DNA from: Pseudotabrizicola algicola
GTDB lineage: Bacteria; Pseudomonadota; Alphaproteobacteria; Rhodobacterales; Rhodobacteraceae
Length of the DNA: 64,000 nucleotides
NCBI RefSeq assembly: GCF_010915705.1
Contig: NZ_JAAIKE010000004.1
Location: 1 to 64,000, forward strand
Reading direction: 5' to 3'
This document shows positions 25,958 to 35,966 of the stretch, one piece after another; within the stretch, counting starts at the first letter, position 1, and each line of letters begins with the position of its first letter. The position numbers and the translations under genes are program-made. Below the pieces are notes generated by a model. The model was given only the letters and a program-made list of their open reading frames with translations. It made no database searches and was not told where the DNA came from.

Positions 25958-26983
25958 TCAGGGCTGTTCCATCGCGGCGCGCCATTCGGCGAGGAAGCGC
26001 TGGCGCGATACCGGGTCCAGATTGGCCAGCAGCCCCGGGTCCAGCCGGATCGGGCGCAGGTGCGGGTTGCGCTCGAAGGCCGCCGCCTCCACCGCCGCCA
26101 GACCGCTGCCACGGGCGATCAGGGCCTGCGCCTCCTGTGACAGAAGATAGCGCAGGAAACCAACCGCCGCCTCGGGTTCCGGCGCCATGCGGGGCACAAG
26201 GCCCGTGCGCAGCAGCGTCAGCGTGAAATCCTCGAGTTCCACCACCGTCAGCCCCTCGCTGTGCCCCGCCAGCGCATAAAGCCCCAGCACATTGTACCCG
26301 ACCAGCAATTGCCCCGCGCGCACCGCCTCGATCATGTCGACCGAGCAGCAGTAAAGCCGGGCATCCAGCCGCCCCATCACTTCGGCCAGCCGCCAGAACG
26401 TGTCCGACAGCCGCGCATCCTGCGCCGCAAACAGATAGCCCGCGCCCGATTCCGCCGGATCATAGGTGCCGACACGGCCGCGAAACCGCTCGGGGTTGTC
26501 GCGCAAAAGGGCGATCAGGTCGCGGCGGGTGCGCGGCACCTCTTCGCCCGCGCGCAGCGCGCTGTCCGACAGGATCAGCACCACCGGCTCTTGCGCGACC
26601 GACACCAGAAGATCGCGCCAGCGCGCCCAGACAGGTTGCCCCGCCACCAGATCGGCGGGCAGCGCCAGCGCATGGCCATCATTGGCCAGCTTCATCTGCA
26701 AATCCATCGCCGACGAGATCACCAGATCAAAGGCCGCGCCCTCTTCGGCTATGGCGCGATAGACCTCCTGACTGCTCGCCATCACATAGCGCAGGCCAAG
26801 GCCGGGGTTTCGCTCCAGCCATGCCGTGATCACCGGCTCCAGAATCGCGGTGTCGGTGGTCGACAACACCGACAGGCGCTGCAAGGGCGCCTCGGGGCCG
26901 AAGTCTTGCGTCGCCTCGATATCGAAGGCCAGCGCAGGCAGCGCGCAGAGCATCAGACCAAAGGCAAACAGAATTCCGCGCAT
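25958..26983 (-). CDS. Periplasmic substrate-binding protein linked to two-component system
   Basis: 341 residues with a clear signal peptide (MRGILFAFGLMLCALPALA, cleavage about 19/20). The mature part is an extracellular solute-binding fold of the ABC type (LSVLSTTDTAILEPVITAWL, AFDLVISSAMDLQMKLAND, TYDPAESGAGYLFAAQ). It has no permease nearby. Its start overlaps the sensor kinase gene by 31 bases, so it is co-translated with the kinase and may present the signal ligand to it. It is the third gene of the response regulator - kinase - binding protein operon. Confidence 0.82.
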   Translation of the reverse strand: MRGILFAFGLMLCALPALAFDIEATQDFGPEAPLQRLSVLSTTDTAILEPVITAWLERNPGLGLRYVMASSQEVYRAIAEEGAAFDLVISSAMDLQMKLANDGHALALPADLVAGQPVWARWRDLLVSVAQEPVVLILSDSALRAGEEVPRTRRDLIALLRDNPERFRGRVGTYDPAESGAGYLFAAQDARLSDTFWRLAEVMGRLDARLYCCSVDMIEAVRAGQLLVGYNVLGLYALAGHSEGLTVVELEDFTLTLLRTGLVPRMAPEPEAAVGFLRYLLSQEAQALIARGSGLAAVEAAAFERNPHLRPIRLDPGLLANLDPVSRQRFLAEWRAAMEQP

Positions 26984-28329
26984 GCGCCGCCTCCTTCCCG
27001 TGCGCGCAGGCGGAAACTGCCGCCCATCGCGCTGGCTGCCTGTTCCACGATGGTCAGCCCGAGGCCAGACCCGGTGACATCGCCCACATTGTCGCCGCGC
27101 CGGAAGCGGCGCAACAGGCGCTCGGGCGCGGCACCGCCAAGGCCCCTGCCCCGGTCGCTGATGCGGACCAGCGCCGTCTCGCCCTCGATCCGCGCCGTGA
27201 TCTCCACCACCGTATCGGGGGGCGAATACTTGATGGCATTGTCCAGAATGTTGCGCAAGGCCGCCTCGATCAGCACGGCATCACCCTCGCAGGGCAGCGC
27301 GGGCGCGATGTCGAGCACAAGGTCGATGTCCTTCATCTCCGATGCAGGGGCCAGCCGGGCGGCCACCGCGCGCACCATCTCGGCAAGGTCCAGCCGCGCC
27401 CAATCGGCCTGATCGGCGCGGTAAAGCACCGTCGCATGGTCCAGAAGCTGCCCGGCCGAGCGTGCCGCATCATCGGCCGACCGGATCAGCCCGCGCAGCC
27501 GCGCCCGTGTCGCCTCCTCGCCCGACTGGCGCAGGGCAAGTTCCGCCTCGTTGCGCATCACCGCCAGAGGCGTGCGGATGTGATGCGCCGCCTCGGCGAT
27601 GAAGGTTTCGGTCTGGCTCAGCGTGCCGCGCAAGCGTCCGATGAAACTGTTCAGCGCGGTGACAAAGGGCAGCAGCTCGCGCGGGGCGGGGTCGCGCACG
27701 GGGCGCAGATCGCGCGGACCGCGCCGCCCCACCGCCTCGGCCAGCCGGTCGATCGGGGCGGTCAGGCTGCGCGCGACCAGCAGCGCCAGCGGAATCGCCA
27801 CCAGAAACACCGCCAGCCCCAGCGCCGCTGCCTGCCAGCCAAGCCGAGCGGCAATCGCCCCCTGCCCCTCCCGCGTCTGGCCGAGCAGCACCAGCACCGG
27901 CGAGGCCCGCCCCTCCACCCGCAACGACCGCGCCACCGCCGCCACCCGGATACGCGCATCGCGGAACGGCACCGTGTAGAACACCGGCGCCAGCGTCGTG
28001 GGCAGGCCCTCGGGCAGCGGCAGATCGCCATAGCCCGTCACCGTCTGCCCGCCGATATCCACGCGGTAAAAGATGCGCTCTTCGCCCATCGCCGCCAGCA
28101 TCGAAAAGGTGGCGGGCTGCACGTCGATCACCACGCCGCCCTCTTCGGCGCGCATCTCTTCGGCCAAGGCAAGGGCCGCCGAGCCAAGCACCGCGTCCAG
28201 CGTCGCCTGCGCCGCACGTTCGGCCCCGATCCGCACCGCCAGCGACAGCACCAGCGCCAGCACCGCCGCCAGAGCCAGCAGCTGCCCCACCAGCCTGCGC
28301 CGCAGCGAGAAGGCCACAGGCCGCGCCAA
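26953..28329 (-). CDS. tctE: Sensor histidine kinase, TctE type
   Basis: 458 residues. Two membrane segments (about 12-34 and 168-192) enclose a periplasmic sensor of the TctE/2CSK type; a HAMP linker, a HisKA box with the phospho-acceptor in EAAHHIRTPLAV (about 250), and an ATPase domain with DNAIKY, DRGRGLGG and GSGLGLTI follow. It should sense a carboxylic acid outside the cell and phosphorylate the regulator encoded just upstream. The neighbouring TctCBA genes make TctE the likely type; the ligand is not known. Confidence 0.88.
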   Translation of the reverse strand: MARPVAFSLRRRLVGQLLALAAVLALVLSLAVRIGAERAAQATLDAVLGSAALALAEEMRAEEGGVVIDVQPATFSMLAAMGEERIFYRVDIGGQTVTGYGDLPLPEGLPTTLAPVFYTVPFRDARIRVAAVARSLRVEGRASPVLVLLGQTREGQGAIAARLGWQAAALGLAVFLVAIPLALLVARSLTAPIDRLAEAVGRRGPRDLRPVRDPAPRELLPFVTALNSFIGRLRGTLSQTETFIAEAAHHIRTPLAVMRNEAELALRQSGEEATRARLRGLIRSADDAARSAGQLLDHATVLYRADQADWARLDLAEMVRAVAARLAPASEMKDIDLVLDIAPALPCEGDAVLIEAALRNILDNAIKYSPPDTVVEITARIEGETALVRISDRGRGLGGAAPERLLRRFRRGDNVGDVTGSGLGLTIVEQAASAMGGSFRLRAREGGGACAEFCLPLV

Positions 28330-28332
28330 GAC

Positions 28333-28998
28333 TCAGCCGTCCGTCAGGCGGTAGCCAAGGCCCCGCACCGTCTCGATCCGCGCGCGGCTGCCCGCCAGCT
28401 TCTTGCGCAAGCGGCCCACATAGACCTCGATCGCATTGTCGGTCACCGGCTCCGAGAACGAGAACAGCCGGTCGCACAGATGCTCTTTCGACAGGATGCG
28501 CCCCGGCGCGTTCAGGAACAATTCCAGCAGACGCACCTCGCGGGACCGCAGGTCGCGCGATTCGCCTGCCACACCGATGGTTGCCGACAACGGGTCGAAG
28601 GTCAGGTCCGCAAAGCTGCGCTGCGTCTGCACCAAGCCGCCACGGCGGCGCAGCACCGCGCGGCAGCGCGCCTCCAGCTCGGCAAAATCGAACGGCTTGG
28701 TGATGTAATCATCCGCGCCGGTATCCAGCGCATCCACCCGGTCACTCACGGCAGACCGCGCCGTCATCACGATCACCGGCGTCGTGCGTTCGGCCCGGCG
28801 ATGACGCGCCAGAAAATCGCGCCCGTCGCCGTCGGGCAGCATGATATCCAGCAAAATCAGGTCATAAGACGCCGCCAGCAGGAATTCCTCGGCCTCGGCC
28901 AGCGTGCCGGCACAGTCCACGCCATGCCCTTCCAGCCCCAGACGTGCGGCCACGCTGGCGGCCAGATCGGCATTGTCCTCCACCAGCAAAAACCGCAC
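28333..28998 (-). CDS. tctD: OmpR-family response regulator, TctD type
   Basis: 221 residues. The receiver domain has the acidic pocket (VEDNADL), phospho-acceptor Asp51 (LILLDIMLPDGDG) and the conserved Thr and Lys (VMTAR, ITKPF). A winged-helix domain follows (LRSREVRLLELFLNAPGRIL ... VYVGRLRKKL). It runs divergently from tctC across 150 bp and probably activates that operon. It is followed by the kinase gene after four bases. Confidence 0.9.
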   Translation of the reverse strand: MRFLLVEDNADLAASVAARLGLEGHGVDCAGTLAEAEEFLLAASYDLILLDIMLPDGDGRDFLARHRRAERTTPVIVMTARSAVSDRVDALDTGADDYITKPFDFAELEARCRAVLRRRGGLVQTQRSFADLTFDPLSATIGVAGESRDLRSREVRLLELFLNAPGRILSKEHLCDRLFSFSEPVTDNAIEVYVGRLRKKLAGSRARIETVRGLGYRLTDG

Positions 28999-29044: not shown

Positions 29045-29074
29045 TGACAGGTTCGTGTCAGCTTTCCAGCTTTG
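29045..29074. promoter_or_regulatory. Candidate TctD binding sites
   Basis: In the tctD-tctC intergenic region an inverted repeat TGACA - 6 nt - TGTCA (29045-29060) adjoins a direct repeat CAGCTTT (29059-29065 and 29068-29074). Direct repeats near a divergent promoter are typical of OmpR-family sites. Assignment is by position only. Confidence 0.4.
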
Positions 29075-29148: not shown

Positions 29149-30114
29149 ATGCGTCTCACCGTTTCCGCGCTGGCCTTCAGCGCAACCGCCCTCTTGGGCC
29201 TGACCACCTCGGCCATGGCAACCGAATGCATCGCGCCCGCCAACCCCGGCGGCGGCTGGGATTTCACCTGCCGCCAGATCGCGAACATCATGCAGGAAAC
29301 CGGCCTGTCGCCGAACATGGTGCAGGTCACCAACATGGCCGGTGCCGGTGGCGGCGTGGCCTATACCCATGTCGTCGGCCAGCGCGACACCGACCCGAAC
29401 GTGTTCATCGCCGCCTCGTCGGCCACCACCACCCGCCTCGCGCAAAACGCCTTTGCCGGCATGACGGCAGATCAGGTCCGCTGGGTCGGCACCATCGGCG
29501 GTGATCCGGGCGTGATCGTGGTCGCCAAGGACAGCCCCTTCCAGACGCTTGCCGATCTGGTCGAGGCGGTGAAGGCCGACCCGTCGGCGGTGGCCTTCGC
29601 AGGCGGCTCGGCCGTGGGCGGCTTTGACCACCTCAAGGTGCTGATGCTGCTCGACCGCGCCGGCTTTGGCGATGCGCGCGCCGTGAAATACATCGGCCTT
29701 GACGGCGGTGCCGATGCCATCACCCAGACCGTGGGCGGCTTCACGCAGGCGATGACGGGCGACATCTCCGAGATCCAGGGCTTCATCCGCTCGGGCGACG
29801 TCCGCGCGCTGGCCGTGCTGTCCGACGAGCGCGTGACCGGCTTCGACGACATCCCCACCGCCAAGGAACAGGGCATCGATCTGACCGCGATGAACTGGCG
29901 CGGCGTCTATGTGCCCAAGGGCATCTCCGACGAAGACTACGCCAAATGGACCGACACCCTGCAAAAGGTGGCCGATTCCGAACAGTGGCAGAAGGTGATG
30001 GCCGAAAACGGTCTGGCCCCCTACACCCTGATCGGCGCCGAGTTCGAAACCTTCGTGAATGAAAACATCGCGGAAATCACCGAAATCTCCAAAGAAATCG
30101 GGCTTATCCAATGA
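29149..30114 (+). CDS. tctC: Tripartite tricarboxylate transporter binding protein TctC
   Basis: 321 residues, signal peptide MRLTVSALAFSATALLGLTT ending in SAMA. The mature protein is a Bug-family receptor: PANPGGGWDFTCRQ at the start, VTNMAGAGGGVAYTHVVGQ, and the AGGSAVGGFDHLK loop that contacts carboxylates. It captures an organic acid in the periplasm and delivers it to TctAB. It diverges from the tctD regulator, has a GGGAGGA motif before the ATG, and overlaps tctB by four bases. Confidence 0.93.
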   Translation: MRLTVSALAFSATALLGLTTSAMATECIAPANPGGGWDFTCRQIANIMQETGLSPNMVQVTNMAGAGGGVAYTHVVGQRDTDPNVFIAASSATTTRLAQNAFAGMTADQVRWVGTIGGDPGVIVVAKDSPFQTLADLVEAVKADPSAVAFAGGSAVGGFDHLKVLMLLDRAGFGDARAVKYIGLDGGADAITQTVGGFTQAMTGDISEIQGFIRSGDVRALAVLSDERVTGFDDIPTAKEQGIDLTAMNWRGVYVPKGISDEDYAKWTDTLQKVADSEQWQKVMAENGLAPYTLIGAEFETFVNENIAEITEISKEIGLIQ

Positions 30115-30554
30115 TCCGCGCAGACCGCATCTTTGGTGTGGTCATGGTGATCCTGGCGCTGGGGTATATCCTCAGCGCCATGTCCATCCAGACCTCGTTC
30201 CTGTCCGATCCGGTCGGGCCGCGCGTGTTTCCCTATATGGTGGCGGGCGTGGTGCTGATCTGCTCCCTCGTCATGATCCTGCGCCCCGACCCCGAGGTTG
30301 ATTGGCCCGTCGGTGGCATGTTGCTGCAGATGGCGCTCGCTCTGGCAGTGCTGTTCGGCTACGCCATGCTGATCCGGCCCCTCGGTTTCGTCATCCCTAC
30401 CGTGATCGCCGCAGGCATCCTGTCGTGGCAGATCAACCCCCGTCCGGTTCCGGCGGCGCTGGCCGGGCTCGGCCTTGGCATCGGGCTGTTCGTCCTGTTC
30501 AAATTCATCCTCGGGCTGGGTCTGCAAGGCCTGCCCCGCGCCCTGATGGGCTGA
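30111..30554 (+). CDS. tctB: TctB small membrane subunit
   Basis: 147 residues with four predicted membrane helices (about 7-25, 38-58, 70-100 in two parts, 115-140), the size and layout of TctB. It pairs with TctA to form the transporter. The ATG overlaps the tctC stop (ATGA). Confidence 0.88.
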   Translation: MIRADRIFGVVMVILALGYILSAMSIQTSFLSDPVGPRVFPYMVAGVVLICSLVMILRPDPEVDWPVGGMLLQMALALAVLFGYAMLIRPLGFVIPTVIAAGILSWQINPRPVPAALAGLGLGIGLFVLFKFILGLGLQGLPRALMG

Positions 30555-30573
30555 TCCAGAGGACTGTCATCAC

Positions 30574-32097
30574 ATGGATACCCTAGCGAATCTGGCGATG
30601 GGCTTCGGCATCGCCCTGACCCCCTATACCCTGATGCTCGCGGTGATCGGCTGCTTTGTCGGCACCATCATCGGCGCGCTGCCGGGCCTTGGCCCGTCGA
30701 ACGGCGTGGCCCTCCTGATCCCGATCTCCTTCTCGATGGGCCTCACCGCCATTCCGGCGCTGGTGCTGCTCACCTCGGTCTATTATGGGGCGATGTATGG
30801 CGGGCGGATCAGTTCGATCCTCCTCAACATTCCGGGCGATGAACCCGCGATGATGACCACGCTCGACGGCTATCCGATGGCCAAACAGGGCTTTGCGTCA
30901 GATGCGCTGGTGATCTCGGGCTTTGCCTCATTCGTCGGCGCCTTCCTTGCCACCGTCGGCCTGATGTTCCTCTCGCCCATGCTGGCGCAGGTCGCCTTCA
31001 AGTTCGGGCCTGCCGAGTATTTCGCGCTCTACATGCTCGCCTTCTGCACGCTGGGCGGCATCGGGTCCAACAACCAGGCCAAGGCCGCGCTGGCCGCCGC
31101 CATCGGCCTCGGCATCTCGATGATCGGGCTGGACAAGACCACCGGCATGCCGCGCTTTACCTTCGGCGAGATGCACCTGATGGACGGGGTCGATTTCCTT
31201 GTCGCCATCGTGGGCCTGTTCGCCGTGGCCGAGGTGTTCCACTTCATCGAAACCCACGGCAAGGACAGCGCCATCGGCGTCAAGCTGGGCAAGATCACCG
31301 TGAACTGGGCGAAACTCTGGTCCACCCGCTATGCCATGCTCCGCGGCTCCGGCATCGGCTTTGTCGCCGGCATCCTGCCGGGGGCTGGTGCCTCGCTCGG
31401 CTCCTTCCTTGCCTACATGACCGAAAAATCATCGGCCAAGGACAAATCCACCTTCGGCAAGGGCAATCCCAACGGCGTGGCCGCGCCCGAGGCGGGCAAC
31501 AACGCCGCCGCCGGTGGCGCGCTGATCCCGATGCTCACGCTCGGCGTTCCGGGCTCCGGCACCACCGCCGTGCTGTTGGCGCTCCTGCTCACGCTCAACA
31601 TCACCCCCGGCCCGCTCCTCTTCACCGAACGGCCCGAGGTGGTGTGGTCGCTGATCGCCTCGCTCCTCATCGCCAACATCATGCTTCTGGTGATGAACGT
31701 GCCGCTGGTGAAGGTCTTTGTGAAGATCCTGTCGGTGCCAAGCTGGGTGCTCCTGCCGGGCGTCACCATGATCGCCTTCGTGGGCATCTACTCGCTCACC
31801 GGATCGTCCTTCGACATGATGCTGATGGTGGCCTTCGGGGTCATGGGCTGGCTGTTCCGCAAGCTCGACATCCCCACCGTTCCCGTCATCCTCGGCATCC
31901 TTCTGGGCAATGCGATGGAAGACAACATGCGCCGCGCGATGGTGCTGTCGAATGGCGACTGGACGTATCTGTTCTCCTCGCCCATCGCCATCGGCCTCTG
32001 GATCGCCGCGGTCGTGGGCTTTGTCGCGCCCATGTTCCTGCGCGGTGTCTTGAAGAAACCCCCGCAACCGTCCACAGACGGCGGCACCACAGACTAA
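30574..32097 (+). CDS. tctA: TctA large membrane subunit
   Basis: 507 residues, about 12 membrane helices. The family signatures GALPGLGPSNGVALLIPISF and its inverted repeat counterpart GFVAGILPGAGASLGSFLAY are both present, as is GVPGSGTTAVLLALLL. It is the ion-coupled permease that moves the carboxylate bound by TctC. Length is normal. Confidence 0.95.
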   Translation: MDTLANLAMGFGIALTPYTLMLAVIGCFVGTIIGALPGLGPSNGVALLIPISFSMGLTAIPALVLLTSVYYGAMYGGRISSILLNIPGDEPAMMTTLDGYPMAKQGFASDALVISGFASFVGAFLATVGLMFLSPMLAQVAFKFGPAEYFALYMLAFCTLGGIGSNNQAKAALAAAIGLGISMIGLDKTTGMPRFTFGEMHLMDGVDFLVAIVGLFAVAEVFHFIETHGKDSAIGVKLGKITVNWAKLWSTRYAMLRGSGIGFVAGILPGAGASLGSFLAYMTEKSSAKDKSTFGKGNPNGVAAPEAGNNAAAGGALIPMLTLGVPGSGTTAVLLALLLTLNITPGPLLFTERPEVVWSLIASLLIANIMLLVMNVPLVKVFVKILSVPSWVLLPGVTMIAFVGIYSLTGSSFDMMLMVAFGVMGWLFRKLDIPTVPVILGILLGNAMEDNMRRAMVLSNGDWTYLFSSPIAIGLWIAAVVGFVAPMFLRGVLKKPPQPSTDGGTTD

Positions 32098-32108
32098 GGA
32101 CCAGACCC

Positions 32109-33467
32109 ATGCCCACCCGCGTTCTCGTGCCTTCGGGCGTCCTCGGCCTCGGCTTTGACCGAACCGCCCTTGCGCGCGGGGTGGCCATGCGTCCCGACAT
32201 CATCGCCATCGACGGAGGGTCCACCGACAGTGGGCCCTTCAGCCTTGGCGCGGGCCAGTCCAAATACGCCCGCGCCGCCACCAAATCCGAATGGCGCGAC
32301 CTGATGCTCGCCCGCGCCGAAGCGGGCGTGCCGCTGGTGATCGGCACCGCAGGCACCTGCGGCGCCGATGCCACTGTCGACTGGATGTTCGACATCACCG
32401 CCGAACTCGCGCGCGAGCTGGGCCAGACCCTGCGCGTCGCCCGCCTCTACTCCAGCCAGACCGCCGATACCGTCACCAGGGCCCTGGGCGAGGGCCGCAT
32501 CATCCCCCTCACCCCCGCCCCCGAGATTTCGCCCGAAACCCTCGCCAGCATGACCAACATCGTGGCGCTCGCCGGGGCCGAACAGATACAGGCCGCGATC
32601 GACACAGGGGCCGAGATCATCATCGCGGGCCGCACCACCGATACCGCCACCATCGCCGCCCTGCCGCTTGCGCGTGGCGATCACGCGGGGGCGGCATGGC
32701 ACGGGGCCAAGATCGCCGAATGCGGCGCGCTCTGCTCCACCAACCCCACCTCGGGCGTGATCGTCGTCGATTTCGACGACAGCGGCTTCACGGTCGAGGC
32801 GATGCACGAAACCGCGCTCTGCACCCCCCATTCCGTCTCTGCCCACATGCTTTACGAAAACACCGACCCCTTCATCCTCTATGAACCGGGCGGGCATCTG
32901 GATGTGACGCGCGCCCGCTACACCGCGCTCGACGCCCGCCGCGTGCGGGTGGAAGGCTCGGAATGGGTGGCGGGCCGCTATACGGTCAAACTCGAAGGCG
33001 CGCGCATCGCGGGCTATCAGACCACCATCATGGCCATCCTGCGCGGCGCGCATTATGCGGCCCACGCGCGCGACTGGGTGGCAAAACTCGCCACCTTCCT
33101 GACCGACACCATCTCGCGCCGCATGGGCCTTGCGCCTGACAGCTACAGCCTCGACTTCCGGCTGATCGGCGTCGATGGCGCGCTCGGCCCCTTGGAAAAC
33201 CGCACAGGCCATCCGGTCGAGGTCGGCGTGCTGGGCATCGTCACCGCCCCCACGCAAGGCATCGCCGCCGAGATCGGCAAGCTGATCAACCCATTCGTGC
33301 TGCACTACCCGCTGACCGAGGATGAGGAATTGCCCACCTTCGCCTTCCCCTATTCCCCCGCCACCACCGACCGCGGCGCGCTTTACGAATTTGCGCTCAA
33401 TCACGTGATGGACCTGTCAGACCCGATGCAGGCCTTCCGCCTGACCGTCACCGAGGTGGGCGCATGA
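32109..33467 (+). CDS. AtuA-like (DUF1446) protein
   Basis: 452 residues from the ATG at 32109, eleven bases after tctA; the open frame reaches far upstream inside tctA but that part is shadow. Family features: VLVPSGVLGLGFD, IAIDGGSTDSGPF, GTAGTCGADATVDW and EIIIAGRTTDTATIAALPLA. AtuA-like proteins take part in acyclic terpene or branched-chain acid catabolism in some bacteria, but the reaction is not firmly known. Its position in a TctCBA operon suggests that it acts on the imported acid or its CoA derivative. It overlaps the DUF4387 gene by four bases. Confidence 0.85.
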   Translation: MPTRVLVPSGVLGLGFDRTALARGVAMRPDIIAIDGGSTDSGPFSLGAGQSKYARAATKSEWRDLMLARAEAGVPLVIGTAGTCGADATVDWMFDITAELARELGQTLRVARLYSSQTADTVTRALGEGRIIPLTPAPEISPETLASMTNIVALAGAEQIQAAIDTGAEIIIAGRTTDTATIAALPLARGDHAGAAWHGAKIAECGALCSTNPTSGVIVVDFDDSGFTVEAMHETALCTPHSVSAHMLYENTDPFILYEPGGHLDVTRARYTALDARRVRVEGSEWVAGRYTVKLEGARIAGYQTTIMAILRGAHYAAHARDWVAKLATFLTDTISRRMGLAPDSYSLDFRLIGVDGALGPLENRTGHPVEVGVLGIVTAPTQGIAAEIGKLINPFVLHYPLTEDEELPTFAFPYSPATTDRGALYEFALNHVMDLSDPMQAFRLTVTEVGA

Positions 33468-33775
33468 GCACGCAGAAACAGCCCCTTGGCCAGCAAGTCC
33501 TCAAGGTCCGCTCCAAGAACGCCGGCCCCTTCTGGGTCACCATCGACATCTTCTGCGGCACGTCCGAGGCTTATGCCTCGGTCCTGCCACGGCTGCACAC
33601 CTCCGACGTGGCCCGCCTCTATGCCACGCCCGAGCAACTGGTGAAGCGCTTCGACATCCCCGATCTGCACGTCATCAAATTCTCGATCCCCCGCCCCGTG
33701 GTGCAGGGGTCGGCGGCAGACCGCGACATGCACGGCGCGCAATGGGCGCATCTCCTCGACGAGATGGCGGTGTGA
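33464..33775 (+). CDS. DUF4387 protein
   Basis: 103 residues; LKVRSKNAGPFWVTIDIFCG and VIKFSIPRPVVQGSAADRDM are the hallmarks of DUF4387, a small partner regularly encoded directly after AtuA-like genes, probably as a second subunit. Start and stop overlap both neighbours (ATGA before, GTGA after). Confidence 0.88.
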   Translation: MSTQKQPLGQQVLKVRSKNAGPFWVTIDIFCGTSEAYASVLPRLHTSDVARLYATPEQLVKRFDIPDLHVIKFSIPRPVVQGSAADRDMHGAQWAHLLDEMAV

Positions 33776-34797
33776 CCCTCCTCACCCGCCCGCGCCTGAC
33801 CACCTTTGCCGTCGCGACCACCGGGGCGGCGCTGTTCTGGTCGCTGAACCTGCCACTGGCGCTGCTGCTCGGCCCGATGGCGGCCTGCCTTGTCGCCGCG
33901 CTGATGGGCGCGAAGATGCAGGATGCCGGAACCCTCGGCACCTTCATGCGCACCTTTCTGGGGGTGGCGGTCGGCTCGTCCATCACCCCCGCCACCCTCG
34001 GCCACCTGCCCGATTTCGCGTGGTCGCTGCTGTTCGTGCCGCTGTTCATCGTGGTGATCGGGGCCATCGGCTACCCGCTCTTCCGCTACGCCTTCGGCTT
34101 CAACCACCCGACCGCATGGTATGCCGCCATGCCCGGCGGCTTGCAGGACATGCTGGTGTTCGGCGAGGAAGCAGGCGGCGACGTGCGCGCCCTCTCGCTG
34201 ATCCACGCCACCCGCGTTCTGGTCATCGTCACCTCGGCCCCGCTGGTGATGACGCTCTACTGGGGCATCGACCTGACGCAGGCCCCCGGCAAGGCGGCCA
34301 TCGAAACGGACCCCGTGCAGATCGCCCTGATGATCGCGGCAGGATTTGCAGGCTGGAAGATCGCCGCCCGCGTCGGCCTCTTCGGGGCATCGATCCTCGG
34401 CCCGATGATCCTGACCGCCGCCCTGTCGCTGGCGGGCATCCTCACCACCCGCCCGCCTGCCGAGATCATCTGGGCCGCGCAATTCTTCATCGGCATCGCG
34501 GTCGGGGTGAAATACTCCGGCATCACATGGCGCGAATTGCGCATCGATGTGGGCGCGGGCGTGGTCTACGCCCTGATCCTCGCCGCCATCTCGCTCGCCT
34601 TCTTCGAGGTGATCTACCTCACCGGCCTTGCGCCCGCGCTCGATGTGTTTCTGGCCTTCCTGCCGGGCGGGCAGGCGGAAATGGTGGTCATCGCCATCAT
34701 CGCGGGGGCGGATCTGGCCTATGTGGTCAGCCATCACCTCTTGCGCATTATCCTCGTGATCCTGCTCGCCCCCGTCGTCGACCGGCTGTTCCGCTAG
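33772..34797 (+). CDS. AbrB-family membrane protein
   Basis: 341 residues from a GTG that overlaps the DUF4387 stop. It has two AbrB-type repeats of about five helices each (LNLPLALLLGPMAACLVAAL; GLFGASILGPMILTAALSL) and the conserved AMPGGLQDMLVFGEE and AFLPGGQAEM sequences. The family (also annotated as putative ammonia monooxygenase) is thought to consist of transporters or regulators in the membrane. A second transport-type protein in the same operon as TctCBA suggests export of a product or uptake of a related acid. Confidence 0.87.
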   Translation: MTLLTRPRLTTFAVATTGAALFWSLNLPLALLLGPMAACLVAALMGAKMQDAGTLGTFMRTFLGVAVGSSITPATLGHLPDFAWSLLFVPLFIVVIGAIGYPLFRYAFGFNHPTAWYAAMPGGLQDMLVFGEEAGGDVRALSLIHATRVLVIVTSAPLVMTLYWGIDLTQAPGKAAIETDPVQIALMIAAGFAGWKIAARVGLFGASILGPMILTAALSLAGILTTRPPAEIIWAAQFFIGIAVGVKYSGITWRELRIDVGAGVVYALILAAISLAFFEVIYLTGLAPALDVFLAFLPGGQAEMVVIAIIAGADLAYVVSHHLLRIILVILLAPVVDRLFR

Positions 34798-35966
34798 CGC
34801 GCGGTCACGTCATGCTTGTAAAGCCAGTCAAACCGCCGCAGCGCCGCCTGCGGCGCGACCACAGACCCCAGCCGCAGCCCCAGATGCGCGACGCCCCGCG
34901 CCAGTCCTGACAGGTGATAGAGCCGCGCATTTGTGTTCGCGGCCTCCACGATCCGCGTGCAGCGCGAGGCGCGCGCCGCCTGATAGGCCGCCAGCCCCGC
35001 CGCCAAGCTGTCATGCGTGGCGAGGGCATCGGCCAGCACCCAGGCATCCTCCAGCGCCATGCAGGCCCCCTGCGCCAGAAACGGCAGCGTCGGATGCGCG
35101 GCATCCCCCAGAATCACCGCCGCGCCCTGCTCGGTCACGCGGAACCACTCCCGCGCGACGGGGTGCCGGAACAGCCCCCACAGCCAGACATCCTGCACCT
35201 GCTCCAGCCAGCCACGCACGCGCGGGGAAAAGCCCTGAAACGCCAGCTTCATATCCATGCTGTCGTCGCGCAGGGACCAGCCTTCCTCGACCCATGTCCG
35301 CCGCTCTTCCACCGCCACGATGTTGCGCAAACGGCCCCCGCGCAGCGGATAGCTCACCAGATGCTGCCCGGGCGCCATATGCACCTCGGCCACATTCGGC
35401 ACCCCCGGCGATTCCGGGATCAGCGCGCGCCAAGCGACCTGATGGGTGAAGAACGGCGCGACCTTGCCCGTCAACGCCCGCCGCACCTGCGAATGGAGCC
35501 CGTCGGCCCCGATCAGCAGCCCCGTCTCGCCCGTGCCGCCTTGCGCATTGCGCCAGCCCGGCCGCGCGCCCGTCAGGTCAACCGCCTCGATCTTCTGCAA
35601 CAGACGCAACTCCACACCTGCCTCGCGCGCGCCCTCCAGCAGCAGCGCGATCAGATCGGCCCGATGCGCGAAATGATAGCCCGCCCCCGCCACATCCAGC
35701 CGCGTCACCAGATCGCCGGTCGGCCCGTCGCGCAACTCCACCGCCGCCGCCCGCGTCGAGACGGCCTCCAGCGCCGCGCCGAGGCCCAGCGCCCGCAGCA
35801 CCGCCGCGCCATTCGGGCTGATCTGCAAACCCGCGCCCACCTCGCGCACCGCGTCGGCCTGTTCCAGAACCGTCACCTGCGCCCCGCGCAGGGCCAGCGC
35901 CCGCGCCACCGCCAGCCCGGCCACGCCCGCCCCCAACACCGTGACACTCTGCCCGATCAGGCTCAT
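34794..35966 (-). CDS. FAD-dependent aromatic monooxygenase
   Basis: 390 residues of the UbiH/salicylate hydroxylase class: the FAD Rossmann motif VLGAGVAGLAVARAL (about 9-23), the middle motif IGADGLHSQVR and the GDAAHPTLPFLAQGACMALE motif near 290. These enzymes hydroxylate aromatic acids with NAD(P)H and O2. The substrate is not evident. It converges on the AbrB gene; both stops lie in one CTAG. Confidence 0.88.
   Translation of the reverse strand: MSLIGQSVTVLGAGVAGLAVARALALRGAQVTVLEQADAVREVGAGLQISPNGAAVLRALGLGAALEAVSTRAAAVELRDGPTGDLVTRLDVAGAGYHFAHRADLIALLLEGAREAGVELRLLQKIEAVDLTGARPGWRNAQGGTGETGLLIGADGLHSQVRRALTGKVAPFFTHQVAWRALIPESPGVPNVAEVHMAPGQHLVSYPLRGGRLRNIVAVEERRTWVEEGWSLRDDSMDMKLAFQGFSPRVRGWLEQVQDVWLWGLFRHPVAREWFRVTEQGAAVILGDAAHPTLPFLAQGACMALEDAWVLADALATHDSLAAGLAAYQAARASRCTRIVEAANTNARLYHLSGLARGVAHLGLRLGSVVAPQAALRRFDWLYKHDVTAR

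Follow-up and report, generated by a model that had tools for sequence, protein, structure and literature searches.

The first 64,000 nucleotides of contig NZ_JAAIKE010000004.1 of Pseudotabrizicola algicola (assembly GCF_010915705.1), referred to here as the window, carry a six-gene operon at positions 29149 to 34797 that encodes a tripartite importer (TctC, TctB, and TctA), an AtuA-family protein, a DUF4387 protein, and an AbrB-family membrane protein. The AtuA and DUF4387 proteins are homologs of the two subunits of the citramalate lyase CmlAB, and the probable role of the operon is uptake of a branched hydroxy acid and its direct cleavage by this CmlAB-type lyase. The separate parts of the operon are known, whereas their combination, in which a tripartite importer is joined to an enzyme of the citramalate lyase type, is new.

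Relationship of AtuA and DUF4387 to citramalate lyase

The AtuA-family protein (positions 32109 to 33467, plus strand; PF07287, 80 bits) and the DUF4387 protein (positions 33464 to 33775, plus strand; PF14330, 84 bits) correspond to the large subunit, CmlA, and the small subunit, CmlB, respectively. In the comparison with the sequences of solved structures, AtuA matched 9erq_A over residues 4 to 441 (E = 3.4e-76), which is entitled "Acyclic terpene utilization AtuA family protein | Citramalate lyase, subunit A (cmlA)," and DUF4387 matched 9erq_B, "(cmlB)" (E = 3.8e-9). The AlphaFold models of AtuA and DUF4387 have predicted local distance difference test scores of 85 and 95, and the only match of each in the PDB at E ≤ 0.001 was to 9evf, "Citramalate lyase - ADP - pyruvate complex" (chain A, TM = 0.89, and chain B, TM = 0.82, respectively). 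With a second aligner, the AtuA model was superposed on 9evf_A over 445 residues (root mean square deviation = 2.6, Z-score = 42.5), and the next best match had a Z-score of 9.0. These results are decisive for a common fold and descent of both subunits with CmlA and CmlB, and say nothing on the substrate. Apart from 9erq_A, the sequence comparison of AtuA gave 29 matches (of 30 in total), all to armadillo-type proteins, which were rejected because they cover approximately 35 residues each and include no stretch that passes alone; the VIA-align matches with Z-scores of 9.0 or lower, located mostly at residues 301 to 427 or thereabouts, reflect a common α/β arrangement and not kinship. The sequence-only reading of this DNA had regarded the AtuA-DUF4387 reaction as not established, a statement that is outdated given the matches of both subunits to the solved citramalate lyase (9erq and 9evf). 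Its proposal that a branched or hydroxy acid is taken up and converted agrees with these matches to the extent that the nearest solved relative acts on citramalate, which was among the acids that it listed.

Over its printed part, 9erq_A shows identities of 92%, 94%, and 53% to proteins from E. coli, Salmonella, and Prevotella, respectively. In the records of those three proteins, glutamate mutase genes and methylaspartate ammonia-lyase are immediately followed by AtuA and then DUF4387, with a fumarase nearby. An excerpt of a study of the E. coli O157:H7 cluster (PMC4682846, 2015) places a gene of DUF1446, the older name of AtuA, downstream of the ammonia-lyase with its function then unassigned, and states that mesaconase produces citramalate, the later fate of which it calls unclear. 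The names of the PDB entries fill this gap. A search of the open-licence literature gave nothing on DUF4387 or on citramalate together with AtuA. The window pair resembles CmlAB in combining an AtuA-family large subunit with a DUF4387 small subunit, but the gene surroundings differ, comprising glutamate mutase, methylaspartate ammonia-lyase, and fumarase for CmlAB, and a tripartite importer and a two-component system for the window pair. No glutamate mutase, methylaspartate ammonia-lyase, or mesaconase-type fumarase was found among the ten genes scanned in the window, glutamate mutase not having been sought genome-wide. Across the genome, class I fumarase gave no match in a search that was positive in 5 of 14 control genomes, and methylaspartate ammonia-lyase gave none above the cut-off and one below it; import of the acid is therefore likelier than its synthesis from glutamate by that route. 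A DNA search for TctCBA in E. coli genomes gave no match.

Conserved residues and phylogeny

Residue conservation was evaluated on 81 sequences of the window clade (threshold, 97%), 4 citramalate-type sequences (threshold, 100%), and 31 others (threshold, 95%), among which the window-type loci L112 to L117, L145, and L163 were counted; AtuA frames of 400 amino acids or fewer, such as that of L115, were excluded. Across all three groups, 27 positions are conserved, and all of them are retained in the window AtuA. The charged and polar ones include Asp35, Ser38, Asp40, Arg175, Asp178, Lys201, Glu204, Cys205, Glu250, Lys294, Glu296, Glu371, and His432. Judged from the alignment, this pattern favors a reaction type shared with CmlAB. 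On the other hand, residues specific to each clade adjoin the conserved ones. Position 177 is Thr in the window clade and Tyr in 9erq_A and the E. coli, Salmonella, and Prevotella proteins, as well as in the fumarase-linked Klebsiella and Neorhizobium proteins; positions 304 and 394 are Gln and Asn in the window clade and Arg in 9erq_A and the same three bacterial proteins. In addition, Thr179 and Glu259 of the window correspond to Pro and Gly in the citramalate type. These differences hint that the window enzyme may act on a substrate other than citramalate.

In the tree of 69 sequences, the four citramalate-type sequences lie within a clade of 14 (support 100/94), and the window lies within the other half, which contains 41 sequences (100/99). 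The citramalate-type sequences do not form a clade of their own; other sequences, including that of the fumarase-linked Neorhizobium, are interspersed with them.

Organization of the operon and conservation of the gene neighborhood

The six genes run in one direction, and all six frames are open at the positions given by the sequence-only reading, with spacings of −4, +19, +11, −4, and −4 bp, the last value applying to the AbrB start at 33772. All score above the curated Pfam cut-offs for the families named in that reading, so that its description of six genes with overlaps or short gaps is confirmed in coordinates, spacing, and Pfam scores alike. Upstream of AtuA are TctC, the periplasmic solute-binding protein of the tripartite tricarboxylate transporter (positions 29149 to 30114, plus strand; PF03401, 101 bits), TctB, the small membrane subunit (positions 30111 to 30554, plus strand; PF07331, 62 bits), and TctA, the large membrane subunit (positions 30574 to 32097, plus strand; PF01970, 500 bits); the three families of this transporter thus exceed their cut-offs in adjacent genes. 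The best solved relative of TctC is 25hk_A (E = 1.5e-31), and its PDB matches name no single useful ligand. The last gene encodes the AbrB-family protein (positions 33772 to 34797, plus strand; PF05145, 256 bits; TIGR03082, 158 bits, above the cut-off), the start of which is either the ATG at 33742 or the GTG at 33772 chosen by the gene caller. The host genome (4.49 Mb) contains one AtuA and one DUF4387 in all.

A scan of genomes, one per species, yielded 159 related loci, and the best 80 were kept for the neighborhood counts, in which 64 loci with at least 7 kb upstream and 68 loci with at least 1.5 kb downstream were used for the respective sides; the counts are not independent, because nine SAR116-type loci have a common neighborhood. 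The closest named relatives are from Pseudotabrizicola, with AtuA identities of 91% (L054) and 89% (L024). DUF4387 directly follows AtuA in 78 of the 80 loci, and the contigs of the remaining two end 46 and 2 bases beyond the match. TctA is directly upstream of AtuA in 46 of 64 loci, and relatives of the response regulator and of the PF13531 binding protein described below are each present in 37 of 64. This linkage is beyond chance. Within the phylum, the DUF4387 family as such was present in 25 of the 398 genomes sampled, and among near relatives in 17 of 61. The core of the system is thus TctCBA-AtuA-DUF4387, often with sensor genes, and AbrB is an occasional extra. The claim that the importer and the enzyme pair belong, with the divergent two-component system, to a single unit for a carboxylic acid is supported.

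AbrB had been described as a second membrane protein of this system, which holds for its place in the operon and is weak as regards partnership. If it were a working part that exports a product such as acetate or an oxo acid, the 4-bp overlap with DUF4387 (start at 33772) and the adjacency in part of the clade would be explained; it is, however, directly downstream of the pair in only 16 of 68 loci, a count in which distant AbrB relatives were possibly missed, and such a role appears doubtful.

Proposed function and alternatives

We propose that the acid imported by TctCBA would be a 3-hydroxy carboxylic acid that is branched, with HO-C(R)(R')-CH2-COO- as its general formula; a 2-alkylmalate is one example. 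Once in the cytoplasm, this acid would be split by the AtuA-DUF4387 complex, yielding acetate together with a carbonyl compound, for instance a 2-oxo acid. Acetate is a poor leaving group in the cleavage of citramalate, and in classical lyases the acid is first attached to an acyl carrier protein. In the window operon, cleavage would proceed without an acyl-carrier-protein lyase. Instead, a nucleotide probably participates, because the solved relative was deposited, according to its PDB title, as a complex with adenosine diphosphate (ADP) and pyruvate; adenosine triphosphate may convert the carboxylate to an acyl phosphate, after which the C-C bond would be broken. The overall kind of cleavage would then be the same as that of the classical citrate or citramalate lyase with acyl carrier protein (CitDEF), from which the operon differs in that its six genes match only their listed families, CitDEF genes elsewhere in the genome not having been sought. 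As for the substrate, the balance stands even for another 2-alkylmalate or 3-hydroxy acid, and citramalate and something else again are both improbable, to the same degree.

Several points weigh against this function. Identity of the window pair to CmlA is only about 36%, and the tree places the pair outside the CmlA clade, behind well-supported branches, in addition to the clade-specific residues next to the conserved ones. The function of CmlAB is itself taken from PDB titles and gene context, and no paper on it was found in the open-licence literature, although one may exist elsewhere. Furthermore, 16 of 64 loci have no TctA relative, which means that the AtuA-DUF4387 pair can exist without a nearby importer, and the neighbors are very mixed across the wider AtuA family.

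If the operon simply encoded a citramalate lyase, with TctCBA importing citramalate and AtuA-DUF4387 cutting it to pyruvate and acetate, the nearest solved relative of both subunits and the retention of the 27 conserved positions would be accounted for directly. However, the window lies outside the supported clade of 14 that contains all four citramalate-type sequences, and Thr177 and Gln304/Asn394 stand where those sequences have Tyr and Arg, respectively, so that we consider this function unlikely. It is slightly less likely still that the pair runs another reaction on the same scaffold, such as hydration, isomerization, or phosphorylation, and that the importer brings in another acid. An identity of about 36% leaves scope for changed chemistry, and the neighbors of AtuA in the wider family include oxidoreductases, hydantoinase-type genes, MmgE/PrpD, and ABC transporters; nevertheless, the polar residues are conserved across the clades, and the two subunits stay together in nearly every locus. 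Neighboring genes give no theme for the substrate that is consistent across the window clade. In a Shinella locus with a 66% identical AtuA, TctCBA is followed by genes for an Ldh_2 dehydrogenase, a hydroxypyruvate-isomerase-like protein, and a cupin. Two Albidovulum loci have a BhcA-like aminotransferase divergently upstream of tctC (L088, 3323 to 4513, at 633.8 bits against a cut-off of 650; L094, 3444 to 4634, assigned by clustering alone), and loci from sponge and other metagenome-assembled genomes have oxidoreductases and a TauD-type dioxygenase nearby.

The current labels of the two proteins, "acyclic terpene utilization" and "domain of unknown function," direct readers to terpenes. The link to a solved citramalate lyase supplies a concrete and testable reaction, accounts for the two genes staying together, and indicates a set of carbon sources for Rhodobacteraceae and for other marine and soil bacteria.

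Divergent two-component system and upstream box

Three genes on the minus strand, arranged in one run, are divergent from the operon. They encode an OmpR/PhoB-type response regulator (positions 28333 to 28998; PF00072 and PF00486), a sensor histidine kinase with a 2CSK_N sensor domain (positions 26953 to 28329; PF08521, PF00512, and PF02518), and a periplasmic binding protein (positions 25958 to 26983; PF13531, 61 bits). The binding protein was absent from the sequence-only reading and may be a sensing partner. Similar to known TctCBA systems with TctD/TctE regulation, TctC, TctB, and TctA occur in this order with a divergent regulator and kinase; the window differs in the additional binding protein beside the kinase. 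The TctD/TctE-type label given previously is nonetheless loose: TctD is the best NCBIfam match of the regulator, but at 195.4 bits it is below the cut-off of 337, and the kinase is nearest to PmrB, at 125 bits against a cut-off of 314.

Regulation of the OmpR/PhoB type involves half-sites that lie upstream of the target gene with a spacing of about 11 bp. An alignment of 36 stretches between the regulator and tctC revealed a conserved box, TGACAGGTTCGTGTCAGCTTT (positions 29045 to 29065, plus strand), as a candidate response-regulator site, the two similar half-sites of which, TGACAGGTT and TGTCAGCTT, are 11 bp apart. It usually lies about 80 to 120 bp upstream of tctC. The box occurs once in the window and in none of 100 shuffles of the window at three or fewer mismatches; the whole genome contains one exact occurrence and one more site at three mismatches. 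Among the 40 loci with the regulator, 38 have the box at four or fewer mismatches (32 at two or fewer; L028 and L064 are without it), a figure that is partly circular because the pattern was derived from the same clade, and this adds to the points against our proposal. The informative part of the counts is the contrast with the 40 loci without the regulator, only 2 of which have the box, both at four mismatches. No repeat was reported by a repeat scan of the 150-bp stretch between the regulator and tctC, and a promoter scan found no sigma-70-like promoter; the evidence for the box is its conservation across species and not these scans. This box is probably where the divergent response regulator acts to control the operon, and the signal would be an acid, sensed by the kinase, perhaps together with the adjoining binding protein, and leading to induction.

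DUF4387 as a possible separate part of AtuA

The long AtuA proteins bear a C-terminal PF23544 domain ("AtuA_ferredoxin"). A survey found PF23544 at 35 places in 32 of 249 genomes, in addition to earlier loci, and 33 loci were examined (L167 to L196, L119, L120, and L166). The domain is fused with the core in one frame in 17 of them and is in a separate frame beside the core in 15; one locus with overlapping frames (L177) is ambiguous. When the PF23544 profile was compared with the frames of all loci, 20 of about 162 DUF4387 proteins matched at E ≤ 0.001 (best, 1.2e-6), and no other family did; the window DUF4387 itself did not reach this threshold. In an unfiltered comparison, 24 DUF4387 proteins scored 7.9 to 28.9 bits (median, 15.5), and the best of 4800 shuffled sequences, of which 2536 were reported, scored 8.0 bits, so that the lowest real score is not above the best shuffle. 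The comparison of the DUF4387 and PF23544 profiles gave probabilities of 96% (local) and 90% (global). On these profile matches, the likeliest reading, weaker than the other links described here, is that DUF4387 would be a diverged and separate version of the PF23544 domain and that the pair looks like a split AtuA.

The window genome has no match to PF23544, and no acyl-coenzyme A (CoA) carboxylase or hydratase neighbors were present among the genes scanned. The long AtuA of acyclic terpene utilization (PF07287 core and PF23544) is similar to the window pair in its homologous core and in its small domain, which is distantly related to DUF4387; it differs in that the core identity is 25% in the alignment and in that it adjoins acyl-CoA enzymes in the one record examined. 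The one long AtuA that was aligned matches at 16 of the 27 conserved positions, has gaps at 5, and differs at 6, including Lys201, Glu296, and His432; a shared mechanism is therefore uncertain. The AtuA family might form a superfamily of acetate-releasing C-C lyases, each with a core and a small ferredoxin-like part, either fused or split (PF23544 subunit or DUF4387/CmlB), which would use a nucleotide where classical lyases use CoA or acyl carrier protein, the window operon serving to import and cleave a branched hydroxy acid that is new as a substrate. We regard this extension as somewhat doubtful, though less so than a plain citramalate lyase. If the split-AtuA idea were true, a single mechanism would serve the terpene AtuA, citramalate lyase, and many uncharacterized relatives.

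Other AtuA-DUF4387 loci and adjacent genes

The nine SAR116-type loci (L075, L080 to L082, L084, L090 to L092, and L098) keep AtuA-DUF4387 without a nearby TctA, and a 312-amino-acid protein with no Pfam match precedes the pair in all nine. A second, more canonical AtuA-DUF4387 pair is found in the same family and genus as the window (L104 to L109) and branches separately from the window pair in the tree. It is preceded by ABC-transporter-like genes, as recognized by eye, and a PF03417 acyltransferase, and a gene of the sigma-54 activator type is present in five of the six loci.

Next to the operon, a flavin adenine dinucleotide monooxygenase gene (PF01494; positions 34794 to 35966, minus strand) overlaps the end of AbrB by 4 bp on the opposite strand; by clustering, its relatives are at the same place only in L024, L054, and L116. 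Pairs also occur on plasmids. On a Klebsiella plasmid (L149), AtuA-DUF4387 is accompanied by a class I fumarase and dehydrogenases, with beta-lactamase and fosA3 genes on the same record, and 12 Klebsiella records with AtuA matches were listed. On a Streptomyces plasmid (L153), genes encoding a non-ribosomal peptide synthetase and a beta-ketoacyl synthase are located downstream of the pair.

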